Positions 3,019-40,942 of a stretch of 64,000 nucleotides of DNA are shown one piece after another. The stretch spans positions 2,234,501 through 2,298,500 of the forward strand of contig OZ020521.1 in NCBI GenBank assembly GCA_963971425.1, in the 5' to 3' direction. A program made the position numbers and the translations under genes. The notes beneath the pieces are model-generated. The model searched no databases and was not told the origin of the DNA. It was given only the letters and a program-made list of their open reading frames with translations. Source of the DNA: Bryoerythrophyllum caledonicum (lineage: Eukaryota > Streptophyta > Bryopsida > Pottiales > Pottiaceae). Positions within the stretch are counted from its first letter, which is position 1, and each line of letters starts with the position of its first letter.

Positions 3019-3019
3019 G

Positions 3020-3031
3020 CCCCCCTCTTTT
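3020..3031 (-). promoter_or_regulatory. Polypurine tract of the Ty3/gypsy element
   Basis: On the minus strand the sequence AAAAGAGGGGGG lies 17 bases past the pol terminator at 3048. This is the expected position for the plus-strand DNA primer of reverse transcription. Confidence 0.6.
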
Positions 3032-3047
3032 AAAAGGTAACTTGCCC

Positions 3048-3287
3048 TCAAGTTACGTACTTTTTGAGCCTGTAGCCATTATAGCGTGTTGCATGCACAT
3101 TACCTGCAAAATCTTGTAATTCCACAGAACCATTAGGATAAGATTTAAGTATTTTGTATGGTCCAAACCATCTCATTTTAAATTTTCCTGGAAATTTCTG
3201 GAATCGACTGTCATAGAGTAAGACTAAATCATTTTCTTTTAGAGTTTTTGGTTGTAATTTACTATCATAATAAGTTTTCCTTTGTTT
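3048..3287 (-). pseudogene. C-terminal tail of the Ty3 polyprotein, cut off by an in-frame TAA
   Basis: The gag-pol frame stops at TAA 3288-3290, but the same frame stays open for 79 more codons to TGA at 3048-3050. The tail reads as a normal integrase C-terminus, with RWFGPYKIL followed by NGYRLKKY. These are typical of the segment after the catalytic core in Ty3/gypsy integrases. A single CAA-to-TAA change would explain the stop. Readthrough is the alternative. Confidence 0.75.
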
Positions 3288-9626: not shown

Positions 9627-9684
9627 TAATAATCCCCATAGGTTTTTTATTTTTATCCTTATTCTGAACTTAATTTTTAAATTT

Positions 9685-9969
9685 TTAATTTAAACAAAGA
9701 TAAATTGCTTCCTCCGTAAGCTTCATTCCCTCAACTTCCCATGCAATGTTTCGTGGATACTTATACATAGTTAATAAGGCTCCCATTTCATTTTCTCCCA
9801 ACCATTCACTGGCTATACCTATTAAAAGGTCTATCTCACTTTCGGCTATTTTCAAATATTCCCCATCATAAGGTCCTATACGGTGATACGCACAAATTGT
9901 AGTGATTAATCTCCTAATTATTTTCCCACCATTAACTGGGGTACATAAAGGATCACTCTCTCGGTTCAT
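9685..9969 (-). CDS. Small leader ORF 4 of the Ty3 element (94 aa, unknown)
   Basis: The ORF lies 58 bases upstream of gag on the same strand, inside the element. I do not recognise a known domain. Its core shares a pattern with the next ORF upstream: Y-L-K/D-I, an E..I..LI helix, a x-EWL-x-E pair, then LL and YP, and finally EA-x-x-LC near the end. That suggests duplication. It is predicted to be soluble and largely helical. The ATG at 9969 is the first in the frame. A role for the retroelement, such as a capsid accessory or host-interaction protein, is only a guess. Confidence 0.6.
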   Translation of the reverse strand: MNRESDPLCTPVNGGKIIRRLITTICAYHRIGPYDGEYLKIAESEIDLLIGIASEWLGENEMGALLTMYKYPRNIAWEVEGMKLTEEAIYLCLN

Positions 9970-10017
9970 TTTGTCATTGGGGTACTTGTATGGTATTTCA
10001 AGGAATTATAAAGAATT

Positions 10018-10299
10018 TTAACTTGAACAAAGGTGGAGAGCCTCCATGGATAGGTTTAATTCCTTCTCTTTATTTATGGGGTAACCTAAATATGCCAACA
10101 ATTCCGCTATCTCAAGTTCACTCAACCATTCTTTTGCTTGTTCAATCAATCTCTCTATTTTAGTTTCTACTATATCCAAATATTTCCTATCCTGACTAAT
10201 GAAAGTTTCATAATAAGCTATTCTTGCATATAAGAATTTAAGGGACTTATTTCTTTCACTTTTAGAATTTAGGCGTTCAATTTTTCTCATTTGCTCCAT
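10018..10299 (-). CDS. Small leader ORF 3 of the Ty3 element (93 aa, unknown)
   Basis: This is the second of three look-alike small proteins upstream of gag. It contains YLDIVETKIERLIEQAKEWL, aligning with YLKIAESEIDLLIGIASEWL of the downstream ORF (9685-9969), followed in both by E-x-E, LL, YP and a closing LC. Its ATG overlaps the end of the upstream ORF (10277-10585) by 23 bases in a different frame, an arrangement suited to termination-reinitiation. Function is unknown. Confidence 0.6.
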   Translation of the reverse strand: MEQMRKIERLNSKSERNKSLKFLYARIAYYETFISQDRKYLDIVETKIERLIEQAKEWLSELEIAELLAYLGYPINKEKELNLSMEALHLCSS

Positions 10300-10585
10300 T
10301 GAGGTAACAATAGTGACGCCAATCAGTCAGGGTAAATGGTTCTATCTTAAATTCTCGTGACAATGGTTCTATTATTAATTCTCTTGGGTAATTGAATTTT
10401 TGTAAGAAAGTATTGATGATTTTTTTTCTATTAATGGAATGTTGGTTGTTGTCTTTAATACGTTCTATTTCTGTCCCCAAAAGTCTAAATAATTTCCCTT
10501 CATTGTATTGAATTTTAGAATAAATTATTAACAATCTTTTCAACCTTGTCCGTTGTTCCTTAAAAGTTTCATTTGAGGAACTCAT
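10277..10585 (-). CDS. Small leader ORF 2 of the Ty3 element (102 aa, unknown)
   Basis: A basic, helical small protein. Its middle (LLGTEIERIKDN... then FNYPREL) resembles the T/E-x-x-I-E-R and YP core of the two following ORFs, but more weakly. It starts three bases after the stop of the upstream ORF (10589-11086) and overlaps the next one by 23 bases, so the four ORFs form a tightly packed series ahead of gag. No known domain is recognised. Confidence 0.55.
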   Translation of the reverse strand: MSSSNETFKEQRTRLKRLLIIYSKIQYNEGKLFRLLGTEIERIKDNNQHSINRKKIINTFLQKFNYPRELIIEPLSREFKIEPFTLTDWRHYCYLNGANEKN

Positions 10586-10588
10586 TTT

Positions 10589-11086
10589 TTAAATACATAA
10601 TAAATCAAAGGCTACACTCACGGGAACTTCTGGATCTTTAGATAAGAAGTCAGGAAAGAATACTTTGCTCTCTAAGTTTTGTTTACTATAAACAAAGATA
10701 TAAGTTTCTTGATTAAACTTGTATCCGTTCCAAGCCCCTAAGCCTCTAGAAATTAATGGTTGTGTTTGAAGTTTCAATCTACCATATTGAGCAAAAAGGT
10801 AGTGTAGTTGATATTTTAAATATAAAGTCTTTTTCTTGACAATTACTTCATTAAAACCCTCACCCTTATTCCACACTTTGTTTAAAATTAATTGTTTAAT
10901 TTCTAAGGGTAGTTGTTCAAATTTTTCATTAAATGATTGATCAATTTTTAGGTGAGCCCCATAAAATTGAAATCCTTGTCCGTAATACGCACCTCTATAG
11001 ACACGATAAAGGGCGCTAAACAAATATGGACCACTAAAGAAGTCACTCAAAGTTTCTTCAGAAACCTCCCATGGAAAAGTAGACAT
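10589..11086 (-). CDS. Leader ORF 1 of the Ty3 element (165 aa, unknown)
   Basis: This is the first coding frame after the primer-binding site. The first ATG in frame is at 11086 (MSTFPWEV). It is rich in Tyr, Phe, Gln and Lys and has no zinc site or membrane helix. I do not recognise the family. Being the first ORF on the genomic RNA and intact in an element with an intact pol suggests selection, but that is inference. It does not resemble the three smaller ORFs that follow. Confidence 0.55.
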   Translation of the reverse strand: MSTFPWEVSEETLSDFFSGPYLFSALYRVYRGAYYGQGFQFYGAHLKIDQSFNEKFEQLPLEIKQLILNKVWNKGEGFNEVIVKKKTLYLKYQLHYLFAQYGRLKLQTQPLISRGLGAWNGYKFNQETYIFVYSKQNLESKVFFPDFLSKDPEVPVSVAFDLLCI

Positions 11087-11287
11087 GTTGTAACAACATG
11101 TCTTCACTCTTTACAAATTTTAATTTTTTAATTTTTTAATTTTTAATTTTTTTTATTTTTTTAAATAATGTTTTTCAGAGTTTATAACTTCACATAAAAC
11201 TAAATGCTATGATAGTTTACTTAAGTAATTGACTTAAGTTTGACAGCTTTCCTAATTAAAATTACTTAAAAAAACTTGACGGTACCA

Positions 11288-11305
11288 TCCCCAGCATGGT
11301 CGCCA
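11288..11305 (-). promoter_or_regulatory. Candidate tRNA primer-binding site of the Ty3 element
   Basis: The minus strand reads TGGCGACCATGCTGGGGA, i.e. complementary to a tRNA 3' end TCCCCAGCATGGTCGCCA ending in CCA. The pattern resembles plant tRNA-Arg 3' ends with a few differences. It begins six bases inside the LTR edge at 11312, the right place for minus-strand priming. Confidence 0.6.
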
Positions 11306-11311
11306 AAAAAA

Positions 11312-13302
11312 TGTGGAGTGATTTTTCACCACTCTAATAAAACACCCAAGTGTACCCACACCTCATAGGATTCGTTACGGGGATGATCATACGCCTAGTT
11401 TTAAGTAATTGGAGATTAATTGTGTCGTTAAAGCTATCTTTTTGGTTAATTCTTAAGGTTATCTATCTATTTCTAGGAAATTAGGGCTGTTAGCATTACT
11501 CTTAAGGGATCCACAAACAAAGTCTAAACCCCAAGGATCTCTCGTGCCTTAAGACGGAACATTAGTCCTTTTAAGATTGTGCTTATGCCACTAATCCTTA
11601 AACACTTGCCACACTGGGCTAATGGAAGTTTCCATTAAGTCTCATTGCATGGGTTCTTTAATTACAATCTTAAAGAATTCAAATTCTTACCTCATGCAAA
11701 AACGCTCCACTTTTCACGTCCGTCCACTGGGTCCACGTGATCACGTTCTTAAGACAATGGTTAGTCTCAAAAATCCCATACACAAGTTAACTTAAGTCTT
11801 AAAGGGTTCACCTCTTAAGTCTCCACTTAAGTTCTCTTACCCACAATTATCCCTTAAAGACCACGGTGTTCCACACTTACTCGTACCACTTAGTCTTTAA
11901 GATGTCTGAATTTTACTTAAGGCTTCTCTCTTAGTCGGGTCCATGTTCTTAAGAACACAGTTTCTGTCCTTGAGTTCTTAAGCACTTCTTTTCTTACTTA
12001 GGACTGATTCTTAAGAACCTGCACTGTCTAGACCAATTCAGTCCTACAGTGTTCTTAAGTTTCTGTCTTTAAGACTTCCAGAACCGGGAGTGCATCTCAC
12101 TGAATGCCAATATTGTCCCGTATTCTCACTCATACGAACCTTTAAGTCCAAGCCCTTAAACTTAAGGGTCTCATGGTACTTAAGGTCTCACTCCTCATAA
12201 GCTTATGTATCCAAACTTGGACTTAAGATTCTTAAGTTTCTATGTTTTCTTCTTAAGTCTTTCTTTGGGATTTGTTCTTTATTTTCTCTCTTATGATAGA
12301 TTCTTAAATACTCACAACTTAGTCTACCTTAGAGAATCCCTTCTATTAAGGTTAGACTTAATGCCAATTTTTTGTATGCATAATATGACACTCTTGCCAT
12401 GCATCAAGGTATGCCACTCTTGATGTTTATTGCATAAATTGCATTAACATGAATAAAAACTCCACTCTTATTCTTATGATACTCAAGTTATGCTCACTCA
12501 CACTCGAGATCTTATTAAGTACTTATGCATCACACATCTCATGCACTAAGTCACTTAATTTCACATTATCTCCATTAATCTTCACACTCATGATTAATGC
12601 TCCAACACACACACACACAAGGTCACACCCACGACCTTAGTAGTTAGGGTATTTCCCTAACTTATTCCATGAAGAATAAATATACAATGCATTCATGCAT
12701 AAGAATTTTATCCACAATTAATACCTAATGCATGCAATTGCATTTACAACACACAATGTCAAATTTATGCAATGAAGTTCACATAATATTGCAATTATAC
12801 ATATGACTCAAGTCACAAGACTCTACATATGCAAATTCAATAACAATTATATATTCATATATAAAATTAAATACTCTTACAACATTAAGAGTCATCAACT
12901 AGCTCTTTCACCTAAAGCTAGGGCTCACTCCAATCTTCCTCCAAGGAATTTCTATGGTAATGGCCAAGAATGCTAAAAATTCAAGCTAGTCATTCTACTC
13001 AACATCCAAGAGGTACAACTCTTGGAAAGAGGTTTTCCCTAGTAGTATTAACCATTAAGATTAATTCCACTAAATCTTCACATCTCTTCATATCCATTCA
13101 TGAAAAGGTACACTCTACCCGAAGGGTGTGAGTTCAACCCTTTTCCCATTATTTCCATATTCTTGGATATGAATAGGTACTTTTCAATTAATTAACTACT
13201 TAGTGTAAACTTAATCATTAATTATCTAATTCTCCATATATCTACAATCCTTTTTACACTTAATTTTCGGAAAAAATCTATTTTTGTCATTTTGGCTCTA
13301 CA
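11312..13302 (-). repeat. 5' long terminal repeat of the Ty3 element (candidate limits)
   Basis: The segment begins TGTGGAG next to the primer-binding site and ends CTCTACA on the plus strand, giving TGT...ACA ends. The right limit is supported by a relic at 27640-28367 that shares the last ~100 bases and stops at the same CTCTACA. The left half is full of CTTAAG motifs; the right half is AT-rich. No identical partner LTR is visible at the other end, so limits are provisional. It carries no convincing ORF. Confidence 0.5.
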
Positions 13303-13375
13303 ACACTCTAAGTGCTTGAATCTGTATACAGAACTATACTAAGAAGGACAAGCACAGAAGTTACCTCGAGTCGAG

Positions 13376-14839
13376 CTAAAGTGCATGACCTTGGTTAAGA
13401 TTAATTACCTCAAACTTCTTATCATTGGCAATCTCCACTGCCGTTCTCCGACCTGATCTATGGGACCCGTGAATGCCTGCGGTGGAGTGCTTCGGCATCG
13501 GTCTTCCAGCTTGGATCCACAACGCGCGAGAGCCAAGGATATTTGTTGCCCACGTCGGCTTGAATTGGACCAAGTGATTTACGCGATTATAATACGCGGA
13601 AATCTTCCGCAGCTTCTCAGGGTCCTCCGTGCAGACAATGTAACACTGCCATGTTCGGAAGTGCCTTCTCATAACCTCCGGTACGTTGCCGTTTATCATC
13701 GACTTTGATGCAGCAACGCTGTGCTGGCCGTTGATGATATAGAAGTTGCAGTCGCTGAGCTCCTCAACCTTTGTTGGCATATGATCGAGCTTGGGCATGA
13801 CGCAGAGAGTCTGCTTCTGCGTCTTGTCCGGCATTTCGAGGTAGTAATGCTTCAACTCCTCCATACCGCGAGGTTCGAATGCACGGATCGTCCACTCCGG
13901 CGGTGCATTATGTAGCCTCATCACATCAAGCTCGATCTTCATCTCTCTGTCTCCTTGGAAAAAACAGCTCTGACACTCCGTCCAGAATTTCTGATATATC
14001 TGTTGGACGTTGGTGTAGTCTGTTACCTCTCCGAACCCGAGCGCCGAAGGGAGTTCCAACAGTGCAGAGGCCATCGAATTGGCCAACTCTTCCTCTGAAA
14101 CGAGTTTCGTCTTCTTCCTGGAAGAAGTCTCCGGCTTCTTGGCAGCTGAGCGCTTCTTGACGGGAGACGCGGACAGCGGGTTGCGCAGGGTGCTTCGACT
14201 TGCTCTTGCACCTGGAGTTCTTACCGGTACCGATGCTTGACTTATATTCTGGCTACCTGTTACGGCACCAGAAACTACCGAAAGTTCTATTGGGCGCCTA
14301 GACGCGATTAATTTCGCCTTCTCAAGAGCGGCAAAAGTACTCATTCTGGAAAGAATGACGCGGAGTTTGTTCGCGACAGCCTTTGCTTTCAGCGGCTGAC
14401 CACTACTAGTCTCCCATTTCTTTTGGGAGATTTCCTGGTCGACCTGAGCCACTATGTCATCAAACTGTGACCCCCTCAGAGAACTGACTAAGTCGAAGAT
14501 ACAGAAGGGAGACGAAGTATTGTTCACTACAATAGTGAACATATAAGGATCGATAGACTCAGTGGTTGTCTCACACGACAACTTCACTATATCGTTATCT
14601 TCGTGGACTACATCAATGATTTTGGTCTTGAAGTCGATGTGCTGGGGTTCGTGGATATCACCAGCGAAGGTCTGACCAAACACTAGATTCTCAGTGTAGG
14701 GGGCCCACAGCAGCGTCCACTTCAGTGTCATCGAAGGATCCTTGAGCTCCCAACAATCTAAGTGGTTGTTGTCGTCTCCATCGTCATCGTCAATGTCGAC
14801 AGGCTTTGGCTGGAAGAAGTGCTGCAGTTGAGACACCAT
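13376..14839 (-). CDS. ParB/sulfiredoxin-like (GQH motif) protein, 487 aa, possibly 3'-truncated
   Basis: The first ATG in the frame is at 14839. Upstream codons lack ATG, and CAG before the start region could be a splice acceptor. Residues ~230-255 are Lys/Arg/Ser-rich (KKRSAAKKPETSSRKK), like a nuclear signal. Around residue 370 lies FYIINGQHSVAASK, which matches the hydrophobic strand plus [DN]GQH[RS]-x-x-A signature of ParB/sulfiredoxin-fold domains (ParB N-domain, DndB/DGQHR-type). About 60 residues later comes a conserved-looking WATNILGSRALW block. The fold assignment is inferred from the motif. DNA binding, nucleotide hydrolysis or nuclease activity are all possible. The last codons follow GAG|GTAATT, a plausible splice donor, and the ORF ends 74 bases before the retrotransposon LTR, so the true C-terminus may be elsewhere or lost. 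A copy of the local palindrome overlaps its end (centre 13370), and more lie upstream of its start. Confidence 0.6.
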   Translation of the reverse strand: MVSQLQHFFQPKPVDIDDDDGDDNNHLDCWELKDPSMTLKWTLLWAPYTENLVFGQTFAGDIHEPQHIDFKTKIIDVVHEDNDIVKLSCETTTESIDPYMFTIVVNNTSSPFCIFDLVSSLRGSQFDDIVAQVDQEISQKKWETSSGQPLKAKAVANKLRVILSRMSTFAALEKAKLIASRRPIELSVVSGAVTGSQNISQASVPVRTPGARASRSTLRNPLSASPVKKRSAAKKPETSSRKKTKLVSEEELANSMASALLELPSALGFGEVTDYTNVQQIYQKFWTECQSCFFQGDREMKIELDVMRLHNAPPEWTIRAFEPRGMEELKHYYLEMPDKTQKQTLCVMPKLDHMPTKVEELSDCNFYIINGQHSVAASKSMINGNVPEVMRRHFRTWQCYIVCTEDPEKLRKISAYYNRVNHLVQFKPTWATNILGSRALWIQAGRPMPKHSTAGIHGSHRSGRRTAVEIANDKKFEVINLNQGHAL

Positions 14840-15030
14840 CCTGTCCCTCTCAGATCTGTACAAACACGAAACGGAGCACAAATATTAGATTGTTTTAATA
14901 ATCATCCGAATAGGATGGCGAGGTCACACATTAGCTCGACTCGAGTTAATGCGTAACTAAATACAAGTATGTAAATAATGCTCTGCAAGAAAATCTAGTC
15001 AATTTGACCGTTCGCTTAGACGCTTACAAT

Positions 15031-15193
15031 CAACTCATGCCTGCTTCTCGTTCAACTCTCAGAACTGTGAAAGAGCTTCAGGTCACGCTCAAATCACTCA
15101 CGAACCTCACTCTTTGAGGTTCTCAAGTGGTTGAAGCGGGACTGAAGCTCTTGCACGATTTATGAGAGGTGAACGAAAAGTAGACGTGAGTTG
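15031..15193. repeat. Long fold-back (hairpin) repeat, copy 1
   Basis: Left arm starts CAACTCATGCC and right arm ends GACGTGAGTTG. The ~79-nt arms are about 80% complementary around a CTCTT loop. A similar hairpin follows 324 bases downstream. It could be a degenerate inverted-repeat transposon end or a small-RNA precursor. No coding content. Confidence 0.65.
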
Positions 15194-15354
15194 AGTTAGG
15201 AGACTGCAATTACACCAATGTATCAATGTTGTATTCAAGTTTTAGCTTCATATTTAGCTCGACTCGAGCTAAGGTGCTCATGCATGGATTGCATAGCTGA
15301 ACAGTTCTGACACTTACAATATTCATTCAAACGAATTTCCTATACATCTATTTT

Positions 15355-15516
15355 CAAATCATGGCTACTTCTCGTTTAACTCTCAGAACTGCGAAAGAGC
15401 TTCAGTTCACCCTTAAATCACTCACGAACCTCACTCTTTGAGGTCCGCAAGTGGTTGAAGCGTGACTGAAGTTCTTGCACACATGTGAGAATTTAACGAG
15501 AAGTGGACATGAGTTG
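15355..15516. repeat. Long fold-back (hairpin) repeat, copy 2
   Basis: Same design and sequence family as 15031-15193, including the shared blocks AACTCTCAGAACTG, GAAAGAGCTTCAG and ACGAACCTCACTCTTTGAGG. Arms again pair along ~78 nt. The two copies have diverged from each other but both keep the fold-back. Confidence 0.65.
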
Positions 15517-15797
15517 GGTCGTCGATATCATTGGTTTACTATACCTTTGGAGTGTTTAAAGTCCGAGTGTTGTTGTGTTTGAGTTGTTTAAGTTTATTGT
15601 CATACACTTTAGCTCGATTCGAGGTAAAGTGTGTTGGCTTTACTGGAAGGCCATGACATTTTTCAGACCGAGAGTTTGAAAGTAGTCATTCTGATTACTG
15701 TTTCTGTAGCCGGCTTTGGCGCAACCATAGACGTATTAAGTCGAACATTTCTGTTCGACTCAAGCTTTACAGGGTGTCCATTGTGAACTATTGATCA

Positions 15798-16138
15798 CAC
15801 TTTAGCTCGAGTCGAGCTAAAGTGCCCTCTCCAGTGTGCTTCATTGGCCATAGTTTACCTCGAGTCGAGTTTAAATGTAGCCTAAAGAGCACTGGAGAGC
15901 GCACTTTATCTCGAGTCCAGGTTAATGCAGCCACAAGAGCACACGGGGGATCTCACTTTAGCTCGACTCGAGCTAAAGTGTGGGCCATATTGCTCAGTGG
16001 TGGCCCCACTTTAGCTCGAGTCGAGCTAAAGTGTGGCCCATTTTGCACAGTGGAAGCCCACTTTAGCCCGAGTCGAGCTAAAGTGTGGACAGTAGTGCAA
16101 TATCGATGTCCCAGTTTAGCTCGACTCGAGCTAAACTG
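15798..16138. repeat. Palindrome array 1: seven units at ~52-bp spacing
   Basis: The centres lie at 15811, 15864, 15915, 15967, 16020, 16072 and 16125, giving steps of 53, 51, 52, 53, 52 and 53. Each unit is built from half-site CACTTTAGCTCGA, a central G or C, and the complementary arm. The last unit has CAG...CTG in place of CAC...GTG, so both arms changed together. The ~25-base spacers are related to each other in direct or inverted orientation. The array lies ~960 bases upstream of the ParB-like gene. Extra single copies lie at centres 13370, 14940, 15263 and 15618. Confidence 0.9.
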
Positions 16139-16364
16139 TGTTCATTGAAGAGCTTATTTATTGCAGTTTGTGCAGATCCGTCTTTCGTTATATGATATTG
16201 AAGGCGTAGGGTTTAGGGCTCCTGGGTGAGAGCATGGCTTTTACCTTTCAGCCATTGATTATGAACCTGAATCCCAGACAAATTCTGCTGGAACTAGAAG
16301 TCCTGCAACAACAATAACAAACCCACACACACAAAATCAAACAAAGTAGCACATGGAAACCAAC

Positions 16365-16600
16365 ACATTGAAATCATTCACAATGAAATCAGCACTTTCA
16401 AATGAGCACATTGAAATTAACACATTGAATTCAGCACATTGAATTTAGCAATTGAAACCACGACATTGAATTCAATGTGCACATCTAAACTAGCACAAAC
16501 CAGCACATTTAAACTAGCACAAACCACGACAAATAACCACAAACCACCACAAACCACCACATTCAAACTACCACATTCAAACCACCACATTGAATACACA
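16365..16600. repeat. Short degenerate tandem repeat (CACATTGAA units)
   Basis: Repeats of the type GCACATTGAAATCA pass into ACCACAAACCACCA. Units are ~12-16 bases and imperfect. ORFs across it on both strands are repeat-derived. Confidence 0.6.
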
Positions 16601-16814
16601 ATCTCATCTACCTTCTCACACATACATCAAAAGCAATGCTATCATACTGTTTCAATACATCATATCTAAAGCAAAACTACACAAATATCAAAAGAAATGC
16701 AAGTCTGAATGAGTGCAGTTACCTTTAAAACTATGAAATCCGACTGAAAAAGCTGCAAGTCTTGTTCCTTCTTCACGTCAATCCTCCGAGCACCGCCGTT
16801 TCAGACTGTACGTG

Positions 16815-16955
16815 CTCACAGAAACTCGCAGAAACTCACAGACACTCACAGAAACTCCTAGAAACTCACACATTCACAGAAACTCCTAGAAACTCACACA
16901 AACTCACAAACTCACAGAAACTCACAGAAACCCTCACAATCTCACACAAACAGCC
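16815..16955. repeat. Short tandem repeat (ACAGAAACTC units)
   Basis: About a dozen imperfect ~10-11-base units of ACAGAAACTC/CTAGAAACTC. No gene is seen between 16140 and 18200 apart from these repeats and a GC-richer block at 17280-17420. Confidence 0.6.
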
Positions 16956-18041
16956 CTAAACTCCAGCGCTGCAGTGGACACGAACTCACACAATTAAGAA
17001 TCACACGTCCTACAAACCCTATCTGCAGGAAACCCTAACGTCCACGAAAGCCTAAACGCACGAAAGCCTAAACGCAGCAGTACAATATACACAAACATAA
17101 CAGACCCTGAACATTACGAAACCAACACAAACCGCAAACTCGCCTCAGAAAACAACAACGCCTAGACAAACACACACAAAACCACGACGAACCAACGCAT
17201 AAACGCACAACCCTCACAAAACAAGAACGTACACGGACACACACAAAACTCACAGCAACGAAAAGGAAGAGAAAATGCGAGCGCCAGGAGTTTCTAGGGT
17301 ACCTTCGGGGGCACCTAAAGTCGTGAGGGTCGAAACCCTGTGGCCGTGTGGTGCTCCCGAGATACCCTCGGGATACCCTTCGTGATATTCGGGTGAGACC
17401 CTCGGATATTTTAGATGGATGCACCACAAATTATTCACCTTAATTATTGATACCCGGAGTTTCAAGAAGCCATTTTAATCTTTCTAATGTAAGTTCTAGA
17501 TATTACGCGCGTGTTGTATTTCTGTACTCGTAAATTTCCTACGCAATTTTTCTTGGCCATTAACACTACAATTTTGCATATTCTGGGGCAACGAACAGAT
17601 AGCAAAAGAAATGTGATTATTTCCAATTTCATTCGTATGATCTCAATTAAAACTTCTAAATTGGCATTTTCTCAATAATACACAAACTTGGATTGGACGG
17701 AAGTGAACGATTATAGTGTTTACTGTTACAAATAGAATTATAGTGTTTAGTTTTCTGTCATGCTTTCAGTGGATCAGTTGGCTTTCACTTGACTCGATTT
17801 CAATTTCTGCATTGGAGAAGGAGTAAATTCATTACCATCGATGTATATAAGTTCCTCCTACACCAATTATTAGGTGAAGCACACTTAAGAGAGTTTTAAA
17901 GCTACAATTTTAAGATTCTATTACTTTGAATTCACGTTTTGATTATTTATGAGTTTGATATTATATACTTTGAGAATCGAACTGACATTAAGTATGTTAA
18001 GACCACATCTTGCAATTGTATAATTATAAAATAAATGTCGG

Positions 18042-18143
18042 TGCACACTTTAGCTCTATTGGAGCTAAAGTGTGCATATTTTCTTTTTAGTTTCCTACAT
18101 TTCCTGATGGTGCACACTTTAGCTCTAATAGAGCTAAAGTGTG
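18042..18143. repeat. Two perfect 15-bp-arm inverted repeats of the TTTAGCTC family
   Basis: The first has arms 18042-18056 and 18062-18076 (TGCACACTTTAGCTC, loop TATTG). The second has arms 18113-18127 and 18129-18143 (CACACTTTAGCTCTA, centre A). They share the TTTAGCTC half-site of the two arrays but have a different centre, so they are a subfamily. Related copies lie near 20148, 20820, 20880, 26930 and 27020. Confidence 0.8.
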
Positions 18144-18203
18144 AATTTTTTCTTTACTTTTCACTTCATTTTGCTTTTACTTTAACGGTACAAATCCAGT
18201 AGT

Positions 18204-18593
18204 TAGAGCATCTCCACCCCTGACGGGGAATTTTCCACGCCAACGGGAAGGTGCCCAAGTTTGAGATGAAGGGAGGGGGGTTTACCCTTTTCCCCCCGCA
18301 CCGTCCCCGAATTGGCCACTGTGAGGGAACGCCAGCGCCCAACACTTACGCCATAGTAGGCTAATTTGTTTTGGGGTTTTTATTGATTTTTTTTAATTCC
18401 CTCGTGTAATTACATGATTGAACACATGCTCCCGGGGAATTTTAGTCTCCCCTGTACTTTCTGTAAATTTATTGTTTAGAAGAACCGGCGCCGCCACTCC
18501 AGTGGGCCGATACACCGGCCTAGGCCTCACGGAGTGGGCTTTACCGTGTTTATTCTCGCATCCCGGTCCCTCGGCCCCGGTGGAGATTCTCTA
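18204..18593. mobile_element. MITE-like element (~390 bp)
   Basis: Left end TAGAGCATCTCCACC and right end GGTGGAGATTCTCTA are inverted repeats with one mismatch over 15 bases. The interior is GC-richer than its surroundings and non-coding. The class is uncertain (hAT or PIF/Harbinger-like) because no clear target duplication is visible. Confidence 0.55.
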
Positions 18594-18607
18594 TTTCTAG
18601 TACACTA

Positions 18608-19376
18608 CTAGCAATTGGCGCTTGCGTTGCAACACATTAGTTCAACCATTTTCATGTAGTTTTTAAATCACAAAATATTAAAAAAAGAAAGGTAACAACA
18701 ATCTACATAAAATATAAATATATCTTTGAAACCTATGCATGAATTTTAATAATGTAATAGAATAGAATAGAAAAAAATTAATTACGTTTTAGATTTTTTT
18801 GCATTTTAACATGGAATTTCAAAAAGGTTATGAACGTCAAATTTGTAATTAAGAGTTTCAAATTTATTTTGGGTAAGCACAAATTGCAACACACAAATGC
18901 AAATTTCACACACCCACAAACTCAACTTGCAATTACAATCTCAATTTTATACACCCACAAACTCAATTTGCAATTACAATCTCAAAACTTGCAATCTCAC
19001 CTCAAAACTTGTAATTTCAATCTCCACAACTCGAATATGCAATTTTGCAACTCCAACTTTGTATGCCAACCTCCAAGATCACAACTCCAACTTCATTGCG
19101 TGGTTTTATATTACAAACTATATTAAAGAAAAGGTAACATGATTCACTGTGCGGTTGGCTACACCGTTCCTAGCAATTGGCGCTTGCTTTGCAACGCATA
19201 TGTCCAACCACTATAATGTCATTTTTATAATACAAACTATAAATAATTAAAAGGTAACATGGTTCACTGCACGGTTGACTACGCAATTAACTGCGCGTTT
19301 GACTGCACTGTTTATGTAGTTCACCGCACGGTTGACTACGTGGTTCACTGCGTGGATTATGATTTTAGTAGTATGA
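18608..19376 (-). mobile_element. Non-autonomous Helitron, copy A
   Basis: Read on the minus strand, it begins TCATACTACTAAAATC and ends in CTAG, inserted between A and T. About 10 bases before CTAG is a hairpin (GCGTTGC, loop AAA, GCAAGCGC with one bulge). These are the canonical Helitron termini. It has two 41-bp tandem units (18917, 18958) and a second internal CTAG terminus near 19170, suggesting a fused mini-Helitron. No RepHel gene. Confidence 0.8.
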
Positions 19377-22257
19377 TTAGTCAACAAGTTGGCAACTAGT
19401 TTTAGCCACCATTGTCATGAATATTATCCCTCATTTGTTCACCTACTACAGTTCATTTTGTAATAGCCCTCTATCAAAACTCTTCCCTGGCACACAATTT
19501 TGATACTTGATAAATTGTATAAGCTCAATATGTTATACCTACCGAACGCCATGCATTTATTCTTCGTCTCATCTTCAACCTCAATTTCTTATCGTCTTAT
19601 CCACAACTATTCTCATTCCCATCTCTTGCATTTTTTTAATATTTTTTAATATTATCCAAATGAATATTTAATGTGTAATCATATAATTAGCCAATAACTA
19701 ATGACTTTGTAATGATTTTTTATAGGATACTTCATGTATATTTGTATATCTAAAACTTCTATGCACAATTAAAGAATATTTAAATTTTACTTAATGAATG
19801 TTTGAAGTTTTAAAAGTATATTTTAGGATAGTTTAATTAATATTTGTATATTTAATGATTATTTATAGAGTATTTAATGCACTATTAATGAATAGATAAT
19901 GAATAGTGCATAAATTTCTAATGTAAAATTAATGTGTAGTTGAATAATCAATAAGTATTTAATGAATATTTACTGAATATGTAATGCACATTGAATGCAT
20001 AAAACACCATATTCATTATATTGGAAGATTGGGAGCCTCCCAAAATAATATTTGAAGCTTGAGAATGACCTAAATATGCAAATATTTAGTAAATTTGCAC
20101 AATGCAATTTGTCCAATATCTACAATATGGGTACATATTCAGCTTGAGTCGAGCTGAATGTGCACCAAAAAAATGTATTGGAAAAACCGTTCACAACTTT
20201 CAAAATCCTGGAAATCTCCCAATAAAATGAGTATGGTGTTATAATATGTGATGGATATCTAATGAGTATTTTACTTGTATTTCTATATTTATTGTATGTT
20301 TAAGTTTTTTCCTTTTCCAATATTCCTTTCTTTTCTCATTTTCGTTTCCAGAAGAATGTTCTTATATTTCCAATCTTCTACTTGCAGTTTCATTTTCCCT
20401 CCATATTTTACATTCTACTTTGTCCAATTTTTGATATTTTTCGTTTGCTCCATACCTACATCCGATTATTCCCAAGCTCTTTCTTGCAAATTCTTGCTTT
20501 TCTACATGCACTCAAACCTTCCTTACTATGATGCTCAAGATGTAATCAAACCATGATTATGGTTTCCTAAACTAATTGTCCACAAGTAAAAAACTTTATG
20601 TTCCACTATTTACTAGGATTGACATTTAAAGTAGTAGTTGACATTGGGTGATGTATAGTTTTGACACTACACTTATTGTTCATTTTACAATTACTGTATG
20701 GATTCCTAATTAGTGTCCACTTCTCTAGAAGCCATCTTCTGTATATTGGAGCTACATAGTGCATTTTTGCTTTCTAATCTACTCCATTTAGTGATGGTGC
20801 ACAATTTAGCGCTAGTAGATCTAAACTGTGCATATTTTCTTTTTAATTCACTGCACCCAGTGATGAGGCACACGTTAGCGCTACTGGAGCTAAAGTGTGT
20901 GCACACACTCCTTTTGGTTCATTGCACAAAGTGATGGTGATCACCTTTGCTAAAAATCGAGCTGATGTATGTGCAATGTGTATATCCACTTCTACAAACA
21001 ATCATTTTGAACTCCGTACTTCTCTTTATGGTTAAGTATTTCACAAGTGAAATCGTAATCTTTTGAATTTTAAAAGGGTTTTCAAAATATGTGGATCTAA
21101 ATCTCCAATAGTAATATTAAAAAGCAAAAAAATATGACGATCCCCTAGTCTTTAGTGGATATGAAGTCTAAGTATTCTTGGTACCCTAAATCAATAATAT
21201 GTGACAATGTGTGAAAATGTATGAATTGGGATGTAATCTTATTTTTCACTAGAAGAATAACATGTTTATCCACAATATCATTCGTTCTAATATTACTTCT
21301 ATGTATTCAAAATATCACATTCCATACTGAGTCATAGCAAAACGTTTTTCAGGTCGCTCGACGTGCCGGCAATCGAGAAGTTTCTCTTTTGGCTCGCATA
21401 ACTTTTATTGAAGACGTTCATTGAGAAAATATAATTATGCCTCATGACTTTTATCATCCTTCTACAAAATTTTGAGAATTTCAAAAATAATTTGCAACCA
21501 CTAGAACGTGCTCAAAAACTAATTATTCCATTTTTGCATGTATCAATAAATTCAAAATTACTTACATTATGAACATTAAATTATGCCTGATGCACTAAGT
21601 GATACACTTTGTATTAGTTATATTTTATATTTTGATTATCCTTTTTTTGTCATGAGGAGGTCTCTCCGTTCCTTGTTGAAATCTTTTAATATTGTTCCAC
21701 TCTCTCTGTGTTACAAATGACAAAGTCTTTAATTTCACGTCAAAACATGAAATAAATTGTGTATGGTCAAGAATTCTTCCATCTTTCATGTCATGCTTAG
21801 ACTGCCACACCCTAAACTCATGATAATGCAATGCGAACTCAAATATAAGATATTTTAATTCAAAATATTAGTAACCAATTTCAATTCCAAATCCAGACCA
21901 TGGAGACACTTGGGATTCTTGCCAAAGAATGCACATTCTAGATTGATGACAAAATAGTAACATGATGCACATTTTTAAAACCCCAAAGAAATGATGTCCA
22001 AAGCATGTTTGAATACATAAATTTTTGCTAAAAATACACGTGCACATAAAATATGTTTTTAAAAAAAATGCTACTTGTTTGTTAACGTCTTTGATTTCAA
22101 CATAATAGATAAGTCCTATTTGGATTGTAATACAAATTATTTCTAATCATCTCAATATCTTCTCGACATTTCCCTATACCTTAGTTGAATTGTCAATATC
22201 TTGAATGTTCAAAGTATTATTATATTGAAATGAAATGACATCAGAAGATAACACCTA
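19377..22257. other. AT-rich gene-free region
   Basis: No supported gene. Contains tandem-like TAATGAATATTT stretches (19650-20000), a palindrome at centre 20148 (arms TTCAGCT/AGCTGAA) and two decayed ones near 20820 and 20880. Part of a dispersed AT-rich repeat (about 20940-21560) also occurs near 50 kb. Confidence 0.6.
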
Positions 22258-22408
22258 AACCAAGGACCCTAAACCCTGAACCCTAAAACCTGAACTTAAA
22301 TACCAAAGCCTAAAACCTGAACTTGAATACCAAAGCCTAAATCCTAAACCCCAAAACCCTAACCCTAAACCCTAAACCTAATCCTAACCCAAACCCTGAG
22401 CGTTACTC
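22258..22408. repeat. Interstitial telomere-like repeat
   Basis: Degenerate CCCTAAA units, for example CCCTAACCCTAAACCCTAAA, mixed with CCTAAAACCTGAACTT. The plant-type telomere heptamer is clear but the array is short and mutated, so it is interstitial rather than a chromosome end. Confidence 0.75.
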
Positions 22409-23030
22409 TAAAACCTTGTATATAACTCGCATGTGCGAGTATATTCGAGGTATGTACTCTTCCTTATTTTAGTCAGCCTGGAAATAGTTGATTCTGTTGC
22501 CCGCTAAGATTTCGAATTTGCACCTTTTTAGGGGCTGTGGAAAAGCCCCCCCGCCAATTCTGAAGTTTCCTCCCACCAATTCTGAAACGGTCGTGTGTCC
22601 GTGAGTGACCTCGCCGATCCTCGAAAACTTTCTTCATTTCTTTCCTTTCTCACTTTGGTTGCTGTGCAAGGTTGTTGTGGAGAGGCTTGGAGGGAGAAGA
22701 ACTGTCGGAGGTTGAGGAGGGTAACATCTACAGGTTACGCACGGTTGAGCAGGGCGCTTGCGCGAGGCAACAACGCACCAATTGTCTTCTTCATAAGGTA
22801 CAGAATGTGTACTTCTTGCATTCTGTGTGCACAGTCTCTAGCAATTAGGATGTGACACTGTGTAGGGTTATTTGCGGTGGTTCCAGTTGCTACTATGATT
22901 TTGAAGCATCACTGCGAGTTTCGTGACGACTAACGGGAAGATTTGGGTTGTAGTACACAGAGACTCAGATCATATGCTGAAGAGTTTTACCATATGAATC
23001 CCTAAAAAGACGCCGAAAATCACGGAAGGA

Positions 23031-23480
23031 CAGTTTAGCTCGAGTCGAGCTAAACTGTCTTTCCATCTTTCCAAGGACAGTTTAGCTCGACTCGAGCTAA
23101 ACTGTCGATATGTATTATTATCGACAGTTTAGCTCGAGTCGAGCTAAACTGTCCTTGGAAAGATGGTAAGACAGTTTAGCTTGACTCGAGCTAAACTGTC
23201 TTACAATATTATATTGACATTTTAGCTCGAGTCGAGCTAAAGTGTCATACCTTCTTTCCTAGTACAATTTAGCTCGACTCGAGCTAAACTGTCGATAAAT
23301 ACTATTATCGATAGTTTAGCTCGAGTCGAGCTAAATTGTCTTACCTTCTTTTGAAGGAAAGTTTAGCTCGACTCGAGCTAAACTGACATACCTGATGTCC
23401 TATTTCTGTTTAACTCGACTCGAGTTAAAATAACAATGAGTCTGATAGTCATAAATTTAGGTCGGGTCGGGCTTAGTTGT
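23031..23480. repeat. Palindrome array 2: ten units at 47-bp spacing
   Basis: The centres lie at 23044, 23091, 23138, 23185, 23231, 23278, 23325, 23372, 23419 and 23466: eight steps of 47 and one of 46. Units read ACAGTTTAGCTCGA, centre, complementary arm. The first eight centres alternate G, C, G, C. The 16-base spacers fall into two main types (TTACCWTCTTTCCAAG, partly inverted, and GATA...TATC), giving a 94-bp higher-order unit. The ninth unit is TTTAACTCGA/TCGAGTTAAA, with both arms changed together. The array ends ~290 bases before the DUF7869-like gene. Two decayed copies follow at 23574 and 23654. Confidence 0.92.
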
Positions 23481-23766
23481 CTTTGTCAAGGGTGACATAA
23501 TTTCATATTCGGCTTACAGCTAACTGCATGAAATTTTATACTTGTCATCTTATACCGCATGAGTTTACCTCGAGTCGAGCTAAATTTACATGATCTGCCA
23601 TGTCAGCTCACTTGAATCATAGTTTTTTTTTCAAACGCCAGACCTTACCTCGATTCGAGATCAATTACCCTCCTCCTATGCTTCTTCATAAATGTCTATT
23701 CCTACGAGGCGTTTACCCATTTTTATTTGTCAGGATTTTTAATTATGTATCTCATTGGAATGCAAG

Positions 23767-26598
23767 ATGTCGTCTTCAGAGGGCGACGATGTTCATGTTG
23801 ACGCTCCCGTGAATCCAGACCTTCCTGAGTTTGATGTTATTCCTCGCCGTCTCTGGGTCGGGCTGACTGTTTCGCTTCACAATGGTTCGGGTGTTCGCGT
23901 TGCGGAGGGGTTGGTTCGCAATGTCCGGTCCAGTGCACTTCTAGGTTCCTCTGGTCCTCTTGGGGATTCGAATGTTGTAGTACAGGTGTCCAGTACTTTT
24001 GTTTTAGACGAAGCTCCTGATGAGTGGAGGTACTCGTTTAAGACCTGGCCTATTCAACAAGTCTTCTTAAACGGTGTGAGTCTCTTCCATCATTGCCTTC
24101 GGGACATTTACAATGTTTGGTTGGTTGAGCGTAACAGACCTCTAGGTGGGAGCTACCGTTCGTACGACAATTCCTCAAGGAATACACGTCCAACAGTGTC
24201 CAGGAATGCTGAATTTCTCATGACCCCTTTTTCCATTAACGTTGTTGCGAGCAATAGTTGTTGCAGTCAAAACTGTGTTCAACACTACCCTAGAGATAAA
24301 ATAAGAGTCCTTCGGACGTGCTTGTACAGTGAGACCATCGTGCAGTTCAGAAATCATATCAAACTCGACGTTCACAGACAGTTTCATAGAGACGCTGCGG
24401 GTAGGAAGGTTGTGACCCTAGAGGGTGTGGACGTTTGTGCCCATGCCTGGATGAAAATCATGGGTGTAAGTTCGAGTACTTTCTATCCGAATGCGAAGGA
24501 CGCTGCCGCTGGTCATGCCGCTCAACACCACGGGAATACCGGTTTGCGTAAGCCTAGAGGTCATACGGTTGTGGCTACTGCCGCTCTTGGAGCCATTCTC
24601 GATAGACATGCGGACCACATGCCTCACAAGTCTCGTGTTCTCCCATCTGGGGAGAAGGCTGTGGCAAAGGTCCTCCCTGCAAGTTTTAAGTGGAAGGATC
24701 AGATACCGCTTCTTGATGATCATCTCGCTGATTGTGGATTGCCGCCAATCTCAACCTCAAGCTTGAGTAAGATTCGGCGTGTGAGCTTCCCTGAGTACTA
24801 TGCCAAGAAAGGTGGAGACAACTTTGCCCGTTGTTCTACTTGTGACAAATACCAGGATCAGAAGAAGCTTACTCAACCTGGAACACAAGCATCACTGCTA
24901 TGGCAAAAGAAGATTCAGGTTCACATTGATTCTGCTTTCTCACATCGGGACTTGTACTATCTGAACCGATTTCGATCAAAGTCGTCGCCCCAGGAGGTTC
25001 TTACCATCATGCATGATAAGATGGATCATTCAAAGACCGCCTCCCCAGTTTTTTCACATAAAACAAAGCACCTAGATGGGCTTATGAAGTTGCCTCTTGC
25101 AATCACAGGTATGCTTGCCCATGGTCATGTGGACCAGCGTTACGCCCATTACGGCCTTGATTTATACTCCCATGATGCCAATTACACGGTCGGGTCGTTC
25201 GCAAAACTATTGCGTGACCTGGAGGCGCCTCCGAAGTCATCGTCCCGGCAACTCTTTCCAGAATCTAGTTCTCATCCATTGTATGCGGCGGTATTACGGG
25301 GTGCGGAGATGTGCTTGGATCCATTAGGGCCGATTCCAGATATCCTAGTTCCAGGGAGGCCTTTGCCACCAATACTGAATGTACAAATGGACAATGCAGT
25401 TGGTGATAACAAAAATAGATTTGTTTTCTGTTTTTGGTCTCTCCTTGTTGCAAAACGCATCTTCCGCGAGGTGTATGTTAATTTTATGCTAGTTGGACAT
25501 ACACATGATGATATAGATGCATTATTTGGACGTTGGAGTATGACACTGAGGAAGGAGAGTTTTCCAACCATTCCTTTGCTCATGAGGTCGTTTATGAAAA
25601 ATGAGAGTGTTCCCACAATCCCGCATCTCATCCAAGAGGTTCCTGACTTTAAGAAGTTCATTGGGGGTATGATTGCGGACGGTGATGAAGCTTTGGAGGG
25701 TCATACAAAGGCTCATCAGTTCAAGTTTTATGTGGATTCAAGTGGTTGTCCGGTAATGAAGTATAAAATCCTTTGTCATGATGAGGATTGGCTTCCTAAG
25801 GGAGGAGAAGGTAGTGGCATCAAATTGTGGAAGGAGGATTGTGAAGGAAGATCTTTATGGCCTCGTGGAGAACCTGATGCATTGAAGCCTTCTATGATGC
25901 GGCATCTCCATGAGGTGGTGAAGGGACTTTCAGGATTCATCGATCACTGGGAGCAATCATCTCGGGAGTCTGTTGAAGCCCGATCGCGTTTTGAGCCACT
26001 TTCGTATTATTGGCGTGATGTTAGAGCTGCTCTGATTATTCCAATGGATACGCCGATATCATTGGTAGACGGCTTTTGGCCGACGACGCGAATTGCCCAT
26101 GCCATTGAAGATGAGTTCTCAGCGGAGGGTGAGGTTCGTGAGGAGTACCGTGAAGATGAGCATTTTGTTGGCCAAAGGCGCGATCGTCCACCTCCTTCTT
26201 TTAGAGTTGGTCGTGATCTTTCTGTTGGCTATTTTGTTGCATTGCGTCCTTGTGATGGGGACGAGCGCCCATTTTGGATTGCTCAAGCAGTTTTAGATCC
26301 TAATTCTAACCCGGATATGCCAAACACCGTGCGTATCCAATTCTTCCGCCCTATATCGCGCGATCGGGATGTTATGAAGTTCTATAAAGATTGGGACACA
26401 GATTGCAACCTTCGTTGGACAATTGAAAAGGGGATAGCCATAACGTGGGAGAGTACCGATTCAATCTTGACAGCATGGAAACCTAGGTCTTCAAAGAGGG
26501 ATGGAGGTCATGTGCAAGATTCAACTACAAAAATTCCGAAGGGGCAAGTAGCAATTATCAAGGCCTCCTTGGAAGCACTTGCTAGCTCCGAATCGTAA
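23767..26598 (+). CDS. DUF7869-like protein (943 aa), possible transposon-derived protein
   Basis: The ATG at 23767 is chosen because upstream in-frame codons lack ATG. The protein is intact. An N-terminal region (LWVGLTVSLHNGSG, then DIYNVWLVERN) precedes a CSTCDKY cysteine pair near residue 355. The central part has HDKMDHSKTASP (~415), LNVQMDNAVGDNKNRFVF (~539) and VGHTHDDIDALFGRWS (~575). These match the conserved blocks of DUF7869-type proteins found in many lower plants and animals. Widely spaced acidic residues and the GHTHDDID block suggest an RNase H-like fold, but catalysis is inference. Near the C-terminus, VGYFVALRP and PFWIAQAV resemble a small beta-rich (BAH/Tudor-like) module. 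No intron is evident. The palindrome array sits in its 5' flank, suggesting regulation or transposase-type binding. Confidence 0.7.
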   Translation: MSSSEGDDVHVDAPVNPDLPEFDVIPRRLWVGLTVSLHNGSGVRVAEGLVRNVRSSALLGSSGPLGDSNVVVQVSSTFVLDEAPDEWRYSFKTWPIQQVFLNGVSLFHHCLRDIYNVWLVERNRPLGGSYRSYDNSSRNTRPTVSRNAEFLMTPFSINVVASNSCCSQNCVQHYPRDKIRVLRTCLYSETIVQFRNHIKLDVHRQFHRDAAGRKVVTLEGVDVCAHAWMKIMGVSSSTFYPNAKDAAAGHAAQHHGNTGLRKPRGHTVVATAALGAILDRHADHMPHKSRVLPSGEKAVAKVLPASFKWKDQIPLLDDHLADCGLPPISTSSLSKIRRVSFPEYYAKKGGDNFARCSTCDKYQDQKKLTQPGTQASLLWQKKIQVHIDSAFSHRDLYYLNRFRSKSSPQEVLTIMHDKMDHSKTASPVFSHKTKHLDGLMKLPLAITGMLAHGHVDQRYAHYGLDLYSHDANYTVGSFAKLLRDLEAPPKSSSRQLFPESSSHPLYAAVLRGAEMCLDPLGPIPDILVPGRPLPPILNVQMDNAVGDNKNRFVFCFWSLLVAKRIFREVYVNFMLVGHTHDDIDALFGRWSMTLRKESFPTIPLLMRSFMKNESVPTIPHLIQEVPDFKKFIGGMIADGDEALEGHTKAHQFKFYVDSSGCPVMKYKILCHDEDWLPKGGEGSGIKLWKEDCEGRSLWPRGEPDALKPSMMRHLHEVVKGLSGFIDHWEQSSRESVEARSRFEPLSYYWRDVRAALIIPMDTPISLVDGFWPTTRIAHAIEDEFSAEGEVREEYREDEHFVGQRRDRPPPSFRVGRDLSVGYFVALRPCDGDERPFWIAQAVLDPNSNPDMPNTVRIQFFRPISRDRDVMKFYKDWDTDCNLRWTIEKGIAITWESTDSILTAWKPRSSKRDGGHVQDSTTKIPKGQVAIIKASLEALASSES

Positions 26599-27639
26599 TA
26601 GACTTAGATAAATGGATTTCCTTTTCCTAGATTTTAGATTCTGATGCGTAATACTTCATGTAGTATGGTTAGATCCATTGGTGCTGGGATTATAGATATT
26701 TGTATTTCATTAATTTACACTCTGTATGACTATAATATGTGATGCCAATGATTGCTATGAAATATTCTCTCCATTCTTTTTGTGTATTGGTGATAATTTG
26801 CAGTATGCTTTATTTTCTTTTTATAATAACAATGTGGTAAATTGCTTCTAGTCTTGAAACCAATAATACCAGTAATTGCCTTCATGGTGAATGATAGAAA
26901 GTAAATGTTGGGTCGCACTTTAGCTCTAGTGGAGCTAAAGTGTGAGCAAATCTTCTTATTGACACTTTAGCTCTCCATTCTTTTTAGTTCAGTGTACGTA
27001 GTAATGGTGCGCACTTTAGGTCAAGTGGAGCTAAAGTGTGTGGAGTTTCTTTTTTGAGTTCATTGCACCTCTAAGTGATGGGGACACTTTAGTTCGAGAA
27101 GATGTAGTGTGTGCAATTTTTTTCCCACTTCTGAGCACCATCATTTGAAACTCGTTATATATTTTTTTTGCCAATGTGAATTCCACAAGGAGAATTGAAA
27201 TTCTTTTAAATCAAAAAGGGCTCATCAAAATGTGTTAAGCTAATTCTCTTACAAGTGGATATTTGTCCGTCATTTAGCTCACTTTTAGCTAAATTGGAGC
27301 ATGGTGTTAATCCGGGTTAGTAGGATCGAGTGTGAATATTTAGCTATTCATATTCAATGAACACATGTGGTATAAAAGAAGTGTCAACTAATGTGTTCTT
27401 CTTTTCAATATTATAGTTAGATTCGTAATGTAATGTTATCCGTAGTACTTATTTTTCTACGGGTTTTTGTAGAAAACATTACCTCCCAATTTAATGGAAA
27501 CTCATATCCCTCCATATTGTAGAGTTTAGATGTGCACTTTAGCTCTTATTATCTACATGTGTTAATTTGGGAGTCACTAAATCTCCCAATATAACGAATA
27601 TGGTGTTACAATGAATAATCACATATATTAATCATAAAT
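26599..27639. other. Gene-free DNA with decayed palindromes
   Basis: Single TTTAGCTC palindromes lie at 26916-26942 (arms CACTTTAGCTC, loop TAGTG) and near 27010-27040, with remnants at ~27085 and ~27535. No supported gene. These are the rightmost members of the palindrome family. Confidence 0.6.
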
Positions 27640-40439: not shown

Positions 40440-40942
40440 ACTCTGGGTTACCAATCTGACATCCTCCGCGATCTAGGAGCGTCCTGAGACGTCGTCCGGA
40501 CGAGAACGTCTCGACGTTTCGTCAGACGCTTCGTCCGCGGGGTAAAAACCATTTACCCAACGCGTTGGTAAACCGTTGGATTCTCCACGGGGCCGCATCT
40601 CAGCCTTGAAATATTGATTGGCCATCCGATCGGTCGGAAGCGTCCGCCCGATCGGACGACGGGCGGGTCAATTCAACGGCCGCAATCCAATTGCACGGGC
40701 GGGCCATTCAATTGATCGGATTGCACGGGCCATTCAGTCCGATCGGTTGAATGGCCCGCCCGCCGTCCGATCGGGCGCCCAACGGAGCGGCCGTTCGATT
40801 GGCCGTCTGATCGGGCGGACGATCGGCATACGGCCCGCCGACCGATCGGGTGGCCATCCGGACGGCCGCATGGCCTGGCAGCCGTCCGATCGGACGGCCG
40901 TGGTGGCGGTTGGCCTCATGGCCATCCGCCAATCTATAAAAG
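40440..40942 (+). promoter_or_regulatory. GC-rich island with TATA box (TATAAAAG at 40935)
   Basis: A ~490-bp block dense in CGGACGGCCG and CCGATCGG ends at TATAAAAG (40935-40942). A pyrimidine-rich run (CTCCTTCTCTCCTCAC) and then the kinase-like reading frame 200 bases on follow. It looks like a genuine promoter now in front of a broken gene. Confidence 0.55.

Follow-up and report, generated by a model that had tools for sequence, protein, structure and literature searches.

A large cut-and-paste transposon of the moss Bryoerythrophyllum caledonicum carries conserved noncoding palindromes and a ParB-like gene whose product may bind them

We analyzed a 64,000-nucleotide stretch of the genome of the moss Bryoerythrophyllum caledonicum (GenBank assembly GCA_963971425.1, contig OZ020521.1, positions 2,234,501 to 2,298,500; here, the window). 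An initial annotation of its sequence had picked out a ParB-like gene on the minus strand, a DUF7869-like gene on the plus strand, and arrays of one palindrome near both. The two genes and the palindrome arrays are parts of one multicopy cut-and-paste DNA transposon of about 19.8 kb, and the window holds the right-hand 14.3 kb of one copy of about 19.9 kb (13303 to 27607, equivalent to positions 5563 to 19812 of our reference copy at 97.8% identity). Our overall interpretation, including the proposed binding, is that of a large transposon whose own DNA-binding protein recognizes cognate palindromes, likely to counter silencing; we put the chances of this at about even.

The ends of the transposon were apparent from the comparison of two copies (on C11, loci L031, L003, L032, and L033; on C9, loci L035 and L034), between which similarity begins and ends abruptly at imperfect 29-bp terminal inverted repeats (TIRs) of the form AACACC(A/G)TATTCGTTATATTGGGARATTT. 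These copies are flanked by CCAA/CCAA and TTAG/TTAG, and the C11 copy, with a length of 19,812 bp, served as the reference. A genome-wide search gave 911 left ends at ≤3 mismatches and, at ≤2 mismatches, 371 right ends. An exact left end stood opposite 44 of the 58 exact right ends at a distance of no more than 45 kb (17.0 to 20.6 kb in 33 cases); the remaining 14 had no such partner. Among 30 of the 44 paired-end copies, for which flanks were fetched, an exact 4-bp target site duplication (TSD) was present in 29 and missing from one, and a 5-bp duplication was seen in none (two of the copies, C866 and C867, have the same flanking sequence and probably represent a single locus counted twice). 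The element thus has the inverted repeats and the fixed-length target duplication of a TIR DNA transposon. The alignment of loci suggested in the initial annotation did yield ends and duplications. Its picture of a two-gene mobile or selfish element with its own sites stood as to mobility, both genes, and the palindromes; it did not stand as to content and limits, since the element is about 19.8 kb long, carries at least one further gene, and is bounded by other repeats. Palindromes as element ends were rejected, the ends being the unrelated AACACC TIRs.

The two genes are linked across the genome. We scored 88 copies of the ParB-like open reading frame (ORF) out of 1791 candidates and 48 copies of the DUF7869 ORF out of 5162 candidates, so that at least these numbers are present; many copies of both ORFs contain stop codons. 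A scored ParB-like copy lay within 15 kb of 31 of the 48 DUF7869 copies, in all 31 cases in divergent orientation with 6.1 to 9.0 kb between the genes, against about 0.6% per gene expected by chance. For the remaining 17, none of the 88 scored ParB-like copies lay within that distance. Database relatives give a hint in the same direction: with contigs equated by size alone, DUF7869 and exon-1 or exon-2 matches occurred together in three cases, and exon 1 and exon 2 matches in eight. Palindrome arrays standing without either gene, which the initial annotation had named as the finding that would speak against an element, were not met in the sample taken. From 10 palindrome clusters among the sites listed on C1, we fetched four, chosen because they had no match in our gene lists. 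All four were diverged copies of the element, with main collinear stretches 72 to 92% identical; ParB-like exon 1 was present in each (partial in one and in pieces in another), and exon 2 was present in three within the stretch fetched.

The palindrome had been annotated as restricted to about 13.36 to 27.1 kb of the window, and this was borne out by 25 matches to TTTAGCTCGASTCGAGCTAAA (≤3 mismatches), all at 13360 to 27035, compared with none in 100 dinucleotide shuffles of the window. It has the form TTTAGCTCGA-S-TCGAGCTAAA (S = G or C), and its arms often exceed 21 bp, as in CACTTTAGCTCGA-S-TCGAGCTAAAGTG; the arms differ by location, yet their self-complementarity is mostly kept. The 437-Mb assembly contains 3562 exact sites, and the reversed pattern, used as a control, gave none. 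As had been noted, arrays precede both genes: one lies upstream of the ParB-like gene (15253 to 16138, with pattern matches at 15253 to 16135; spacing of about 52 to 53 bp in its denser part) and one upstream of the DUF7869 gene (23024 to 23584, with pattern matches at 23034 to 23584; 47-bp spacing). The pattern search also placed two palindromes of a CTCTA variant at 18042 to 18143 (matches at 18049 and 18118), partly degenerate ones 3' of the DUF7869 gene at 26916 to 27100 (matches at 26919 and 27015), and a lone one at 20138. The single copies reported at about 13370 and 14940 do exist (13360 to 13380 and 14930 to 14950), but they do not bound the whole ParB-like gene: the first lies in intron 1, 28 nucleotides past the splice donor, the second lies 5' of the ATG, and further exons are situated beyond the window.

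We counted 37 palindromes (≤4 mismatches) in the reference copy, and none fell in coding sequence (7742 of 19812 bases, with exon limits set by us). The chance of all 37 being noncoding is about 0.0016 when their 13 clusters are treated as independent. Dyad symmetry is pronounced, with 460 of 555 arm positions complementary (shuffled mean, 413; maximum, 431 in 2000 shuffles), and 27 of the 37 palindromes are centered on GANTC, the classical site of CcrM/HinfI-type methyltransferases. The sites lie upstream of both gene starts, past splice donors, before acceptors, and downstream of the DUF7869 gene. Since the biggest arrays are upstream of both start codons, the palindromes could be operators for autoregulation of the element's divergent genes by the ParB-like protein; we regard this as unlikely because promoter control alone would leave the conserved intronic and downstream copies unexplained. 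The palindromes might otherwise be internal sites for the transposase or a TnpA-like protein, used to fold the 20-kb element and synapse its ends in the manner of CACTA subterminal repeats. The occurrence of sites along the entire element fits such a role, as does a 238-bp nonautonomous derivative that has the same TIRs and retains one palindrome. The sites do not, however, cluster toward the ends, since the densest arrays are internal (at 7.5 to 8.4 and 15.2 to 15.9 kb of 19.8 kb), and we consider the folding role somewhat unlikely.

The palindromes are also constrained. Across 29 copies, diversity in 12 palindromes was 0.0124, compared with 0.0335 in other noncoding sequence (2.7 times lower), and none of 5000 random sets of noncoding 21-mers was as low. 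This value is about as low as that for codon positions 1 and 2 of ParB-like exons 1 and 2. In the four diverged copies, identity was 0.895 to 0.940 in palindromes, 0.739 to 0.832 in other noncoding sequence, and 0.830 to 0.894 in coding sequence, with palindromes exceeding other noncoding sequence in all four. The palindrome can furthermore be read in translation (ARLEL, FSSTRAK, LDSS) in the read-through tails of database relatives. We aligned all 62 exon-1 and 114 exon-2 matches, excluded tails under 8 residues, and derived expectations from the bodies of the same proteins: 24 of 40 tails past donor 1 (0.21 expected) and 24 of 60 past donor 2 (0.19 expected) had a palindrome-like reading, counts to be read with the facts that the regular expression was composed after some tails had been seen, that one of the 24 donor-1 matches (P0024) is off the palindrome place, and that the sources are not all independent. 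In introns 1 and 2, palindromes lie shortly past the donor and some tens of nucleotides ahead of the acceptor. This placement, together with the retention of the donor place in many relatives, would suit an action in RNA, with hairpins that aid the splicing of long transcripts or yield small RNAs. No splicing role is obvious for the arrays upstream of the start codons or the copies downstream of DUF7869, and an RNA function appears distinctly unlikely to us. Taken by their symmetry, placement, and conservation, the palindromes resemble conserved sites at which a transposon-encoded protein would bind.

The candidate for that protein is the product of the ParB-like gene, which lies in the left half of the reference copy on the minus strand, with DUF7869 in the right half on the plus strand. 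The gene is multiexonic, comprising exon 1 (P0001), exon 2 (the 475-amino-acid ORF P0170), exon 3, and, judging from an open frame and splice signals, probably exon 4. Gene models P0267 and P0244 of Physcomitrium patens support the splices between exons 1 and 2 and exons 2 and 3. Alignments and model P0267 place exon 1 at 13409 to 14839 of the window (minus strand; 477 codons from the ATG to the donor), with the ORF reading on to 13376. In exons 1 and 2, codon positions 1, 2, and 3 had diversities of 0.0115, 0.0093, and 0.0284 (29 copies, L002 to L030), and exon 3 had 7, 5, and 11 variable sites at these positions (three copies). The corresponding counts were 6, 14, and 25 for DUF7869 (two copies) and 8, 4, and 14 for a phosphatase ORF described below (three copies). 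The bias points toward purifying selection, if only weakly for exon 3 and the phosphatase ORF.

Pfam, PHROGs, and PDB sequence searches did not give a name to the ParB-like exons in any of these libraries. Phages carry ParB-methyltransferase fusions, and we compared eight of them by hhalign with profiles of exon 1 (alignment A2, P0001 plus 34 of 62 matches; 35 sequences) and exon 2 (A3, P0170 plus 40 of 114; 41 sequences). The best stretch of the exon-1 profile fell on the phage ParB box with a score of 27.1 (150 column shuffles: mean, 16.2; maximum, 24.6; reversed profile, 19.2). That of exon 2 fell on the motif-I region with a score of 24.0 (shuffle mean, 16.8, with 1 of 150 as high; reversed profile, 19.4). 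These weak profile matches follow the order of the phage proteins (e.g., QBX23397.1 of Streptococcus phage Javan128, annotated as a DNA modification methylase), in which the ParB box precedes motif I. The moss gene differs from them in having DxR for DPPY, GQHS for GHxR, introns, and a long extra N terminus. DPPY is the catalytic motif of active N6/N4 DNA methyltransferases; exon 2 lacks it and has in its place DxR (D294 invariant and R296 in at least 90% of the 41 sequences), a correspondence that was matched by eye and rests on the weak profile alignment. In exon 1, G371, Q372, H373, and S374 are each kept in at least 90% of the 35 sequences. The gene may thus descend from a phage-type ParB-methyltransferase fusion, on weak evidence, and a ParB fold of its product is weakly supported. 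If this ancestry is right, the replacement of both the ParB arginine and DPPY means that both functions were lost, which would make a DNA-binding protein likelier than an enzyme. A viral or prokaryotic location was rejected, as short peptide patterns confirmed no relatives in viral contigs (alignments A3 and A1) or prokaryote genomes (A3). Two relatives, P0032 and P0197, are labeled uncultured cyanobacteria; we took them as presumed moss DNA in metagenome bins.

Several observations weigh against a palindrome-binding, anti-silencing protein of this origin. No palindrome was found in 16 of the 40 donor-1 tails and 36 of the 60 donor-2 tails, and among the tails without it are those of the remotest relatives, where a different motif may be in use. 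An ADQ-type reading (e.g., ADQRGSR) is shared by the exon-2 relatives P0229, P0241, P0243, P0257, and P0262 past the donor, where the palindrome is absent; it may be a distinct motif of a separate lineage. CpG and non-CpG palindrome sites were spared about alike (3.3 versus 3.1 times) and therefore give no additional evidence of protection against methylation. Gene conversion could partly explain the low variation of array units, and the copies are not independent. None of the 35 exon-1 sequences matched Pfam ParBc at an E value of ≤1, and at the same cutoff, N6_N4_Mtase was matched by one of the 41 exon-2 sequences (E = 0.029). The hhalign probabilities to the phage fusions were just 1 to 3% (3% for the exon-1 ParB box), and for this reason we treat the phage ancestry as a lead and not as proof. 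The canonical ParB CTPase motif is GxxRxxA with an arginine; that arginine is absent here and GQHS stands in its place, so a canonical ParB CTPase was rejected. The same substitution speaks against a ParB-parS-like system, in which a CTP-driven clamp would load at the palindromes and coat the element. A ParB-like box, palindromic arrayed sites, and the distribution of sites over the whole element would be in keeping with such a clamp, which we nevertheless hold to be highly improbable.

The DUF7869 gene (23767 to 26598, plus strand; 943 amino acids; PF25273, E = 2.3e-42) encodes the probable transposase. Its named relatives in Ceratodon purpureus and P. patens are 47 to 63% identical. In an alignment of P0002 with 15 of 105 matches, the invariant residues include some belonging to HDKMD, QxDN..NKNR, and VGHTH..ID blocks, and the aspartates D417, D420, D542, and D584 are invariant in all 16 sequences. 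This pattern suggests a probable DD(D/E) transposase; a PDB sequence search with the protein returned nothing informative. The transposon also carries an ORF for a NIF/FCP1-type phosphatase (PF03031, E = 2.1e-18; L031:7124-7975 and L035:5672-6526), possibly a captured host gene, and two short ORFs past it near the left end.

The whole copy to which the window belongs spans C9:2222703-2262107. Its right TIR is at 27579 to 27607 (minus strand; from copy comparison and the end search), followed by the TSD ACAA at 27608 to 27611, whose partner is outside the window at C9:2222699-2222702. An insert of about 19.5 kb, which starts with TG, ends with CA, and adjoins position 13303, splits the transposon, and the left 5.57 kb lies beyond it, outside the window (reference 1-5567 = L036:104-5674). 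A truncated copy was accordingly rejected, the left piece having been located 11.8 kb outside the window. The insert is flanked by a 5-bp target duplication, ACACT, with one copy at 13303 to 13307 and the other at the junction of GGAGAGTGTACACT and TGTGGAG in L036. We call the insert LTR-retrotransposon-like because of this duplication and the TG...CA termini. A self-comparison (matches of ≥50 bp) revealed no partner within the window for its LTR-like end at 13302. A Gypsy-type ORF of 2112 amino acids (3288 to 9626, minus strand) is inside the insert, which reaches up to 13302 and continues past the left edge of the window. Membership of the transposon in CACTA, prompted by CACT at 13304, was rejected, since that edge only marks where the retrotransposon-like insert entered.

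The 238-bp nonautonomous element that contains the lone palindrome at 20138 is nested in the window copy at 20003 to 20240, with ATAA on both sides, as identified by copy comparison. It is missing from three diverged copies, which do not confirm the ATAA duplication because their target reads differently there. Of 906 candidate matches to it, 40 were scored, all of full length, and those looked at (e.g., C9:178448 and C11:6775040) sit within large copies. A repeat of about 490 bp occurs in the window at 18607 to 19095, 48608 to 49095, and 59203 to 59766 (91% and 81% identical); the first belongs to the transposon (reference 10837-11324) and falls in a region that the diverged copies L105 to L107 lack. 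An interstitial telomere-like ACCCTAAA run lies between the divergent genes at 22266 to 22397. Elsewhere in the window, we noted GC-rich palindromes of the CGATCGGA type (40625 to 40898), which are unlike those of the transposon, a 656-amino-acid ORF in a GC-rich stretch (52089 to 54059, minus strand; no Pfam match at E ≤ 1), and a TrkH-like cation transporter ORF (62626 to 63993, minus strand; PF02386, E = 2.1e-34).

We propose that the DUF7869 transposase would cut at the TIRs and that the ParB-like protein, its catalytic motif lost, would act as a homodimeric, sequence-specific DNA-binding protein. The dimer would bind the dyad palindromes upstream of the genes, in introns, and downstream, and with sites bound throughout the noncoding DNA, the entire 20-kb element would be marked. 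Such marking could, like VANC in VANDAL transposons, protect the element from silencing by DNA methylation and maintain the expression of its genes. Binding at the arrays might also, in addition or instead, autoregulate the genes or help unite the ends. To our knowledge, transposon-encoded, sequence-specific anti-silencing proteins are known in very few cases, of which VANC is the clear one. By analogy with it, an anti-silencing role is the most likely one for a palindrome-binding protein here.

According to the VANC21 study, VANC21 binds a short motif in noncoding regions of its own transposon, VANDAL21, of Arabidopsis; VANC targets are often in tandem repeats, and VANC triggers a loss of DNA methylation along the whole element (PMC5735166). 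The moss element resembles this system in combining a noncoding, often tandem motif (all 37 palindromes being outside coding sequence) with a transposon-encoded accessory protein. It differs in apparently belonging to other transposon and protein families and in having a palindrome instead of the 9-bp YAGTATTAY (PMC5735166); for the moss protein, binding and demethylation are proposed.

CACTA/En-Spm elements are likewise large plant transposons, and their subterminal repeats are the binding sites of an accessory protein, TnpA. They differ from the moss element in their 3-bp TSD and CACTA/CACTG ends, as given in the portion used of a published account (PMC10741241). The same portion describes features of the Sola superfamily that agree with ours: a 4-bp TSD, as found here, TIRs within a reported range of 11 to 1124 bp, and conserved acidic residues, here in the probable transposase. 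Sola is known from the moss P. patens, and some members exceed 15 kb (PMC10741241). A ParB-like gene, a phosphatase gene, and palindromes go unmentioned in that part of the Sola account. By TSD, moss host, and acidic residues, the element is probably Sola-like. Our literature searches returned no paper that deals with DUF7869 or with a plant transposon carrying a ParB-like gene; parts of the element may already be in Repbase.

In its most specific form, our proposal is that a moss transposon recruited a prokaryotic ParB-methyltransferase fusion, which lost both active-site motifs and, as a DNA-binding protein with dozens of coevolving, mostly GANTC-centered palindromes in introns and on both sides of genes, labels the element against silencing; we advance this tentatively, as a possibility that is on balance doubtful. 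If true, a VANC-like system would have evolved a second time, independently and from phage parts. DUF7869, together with a moss protein family that as yet has no name, would also gain a role. The 3562 exact, easily recognized sites and the many similar copies would make self-marking by an independent anti-silencing system directly testable in a moss.

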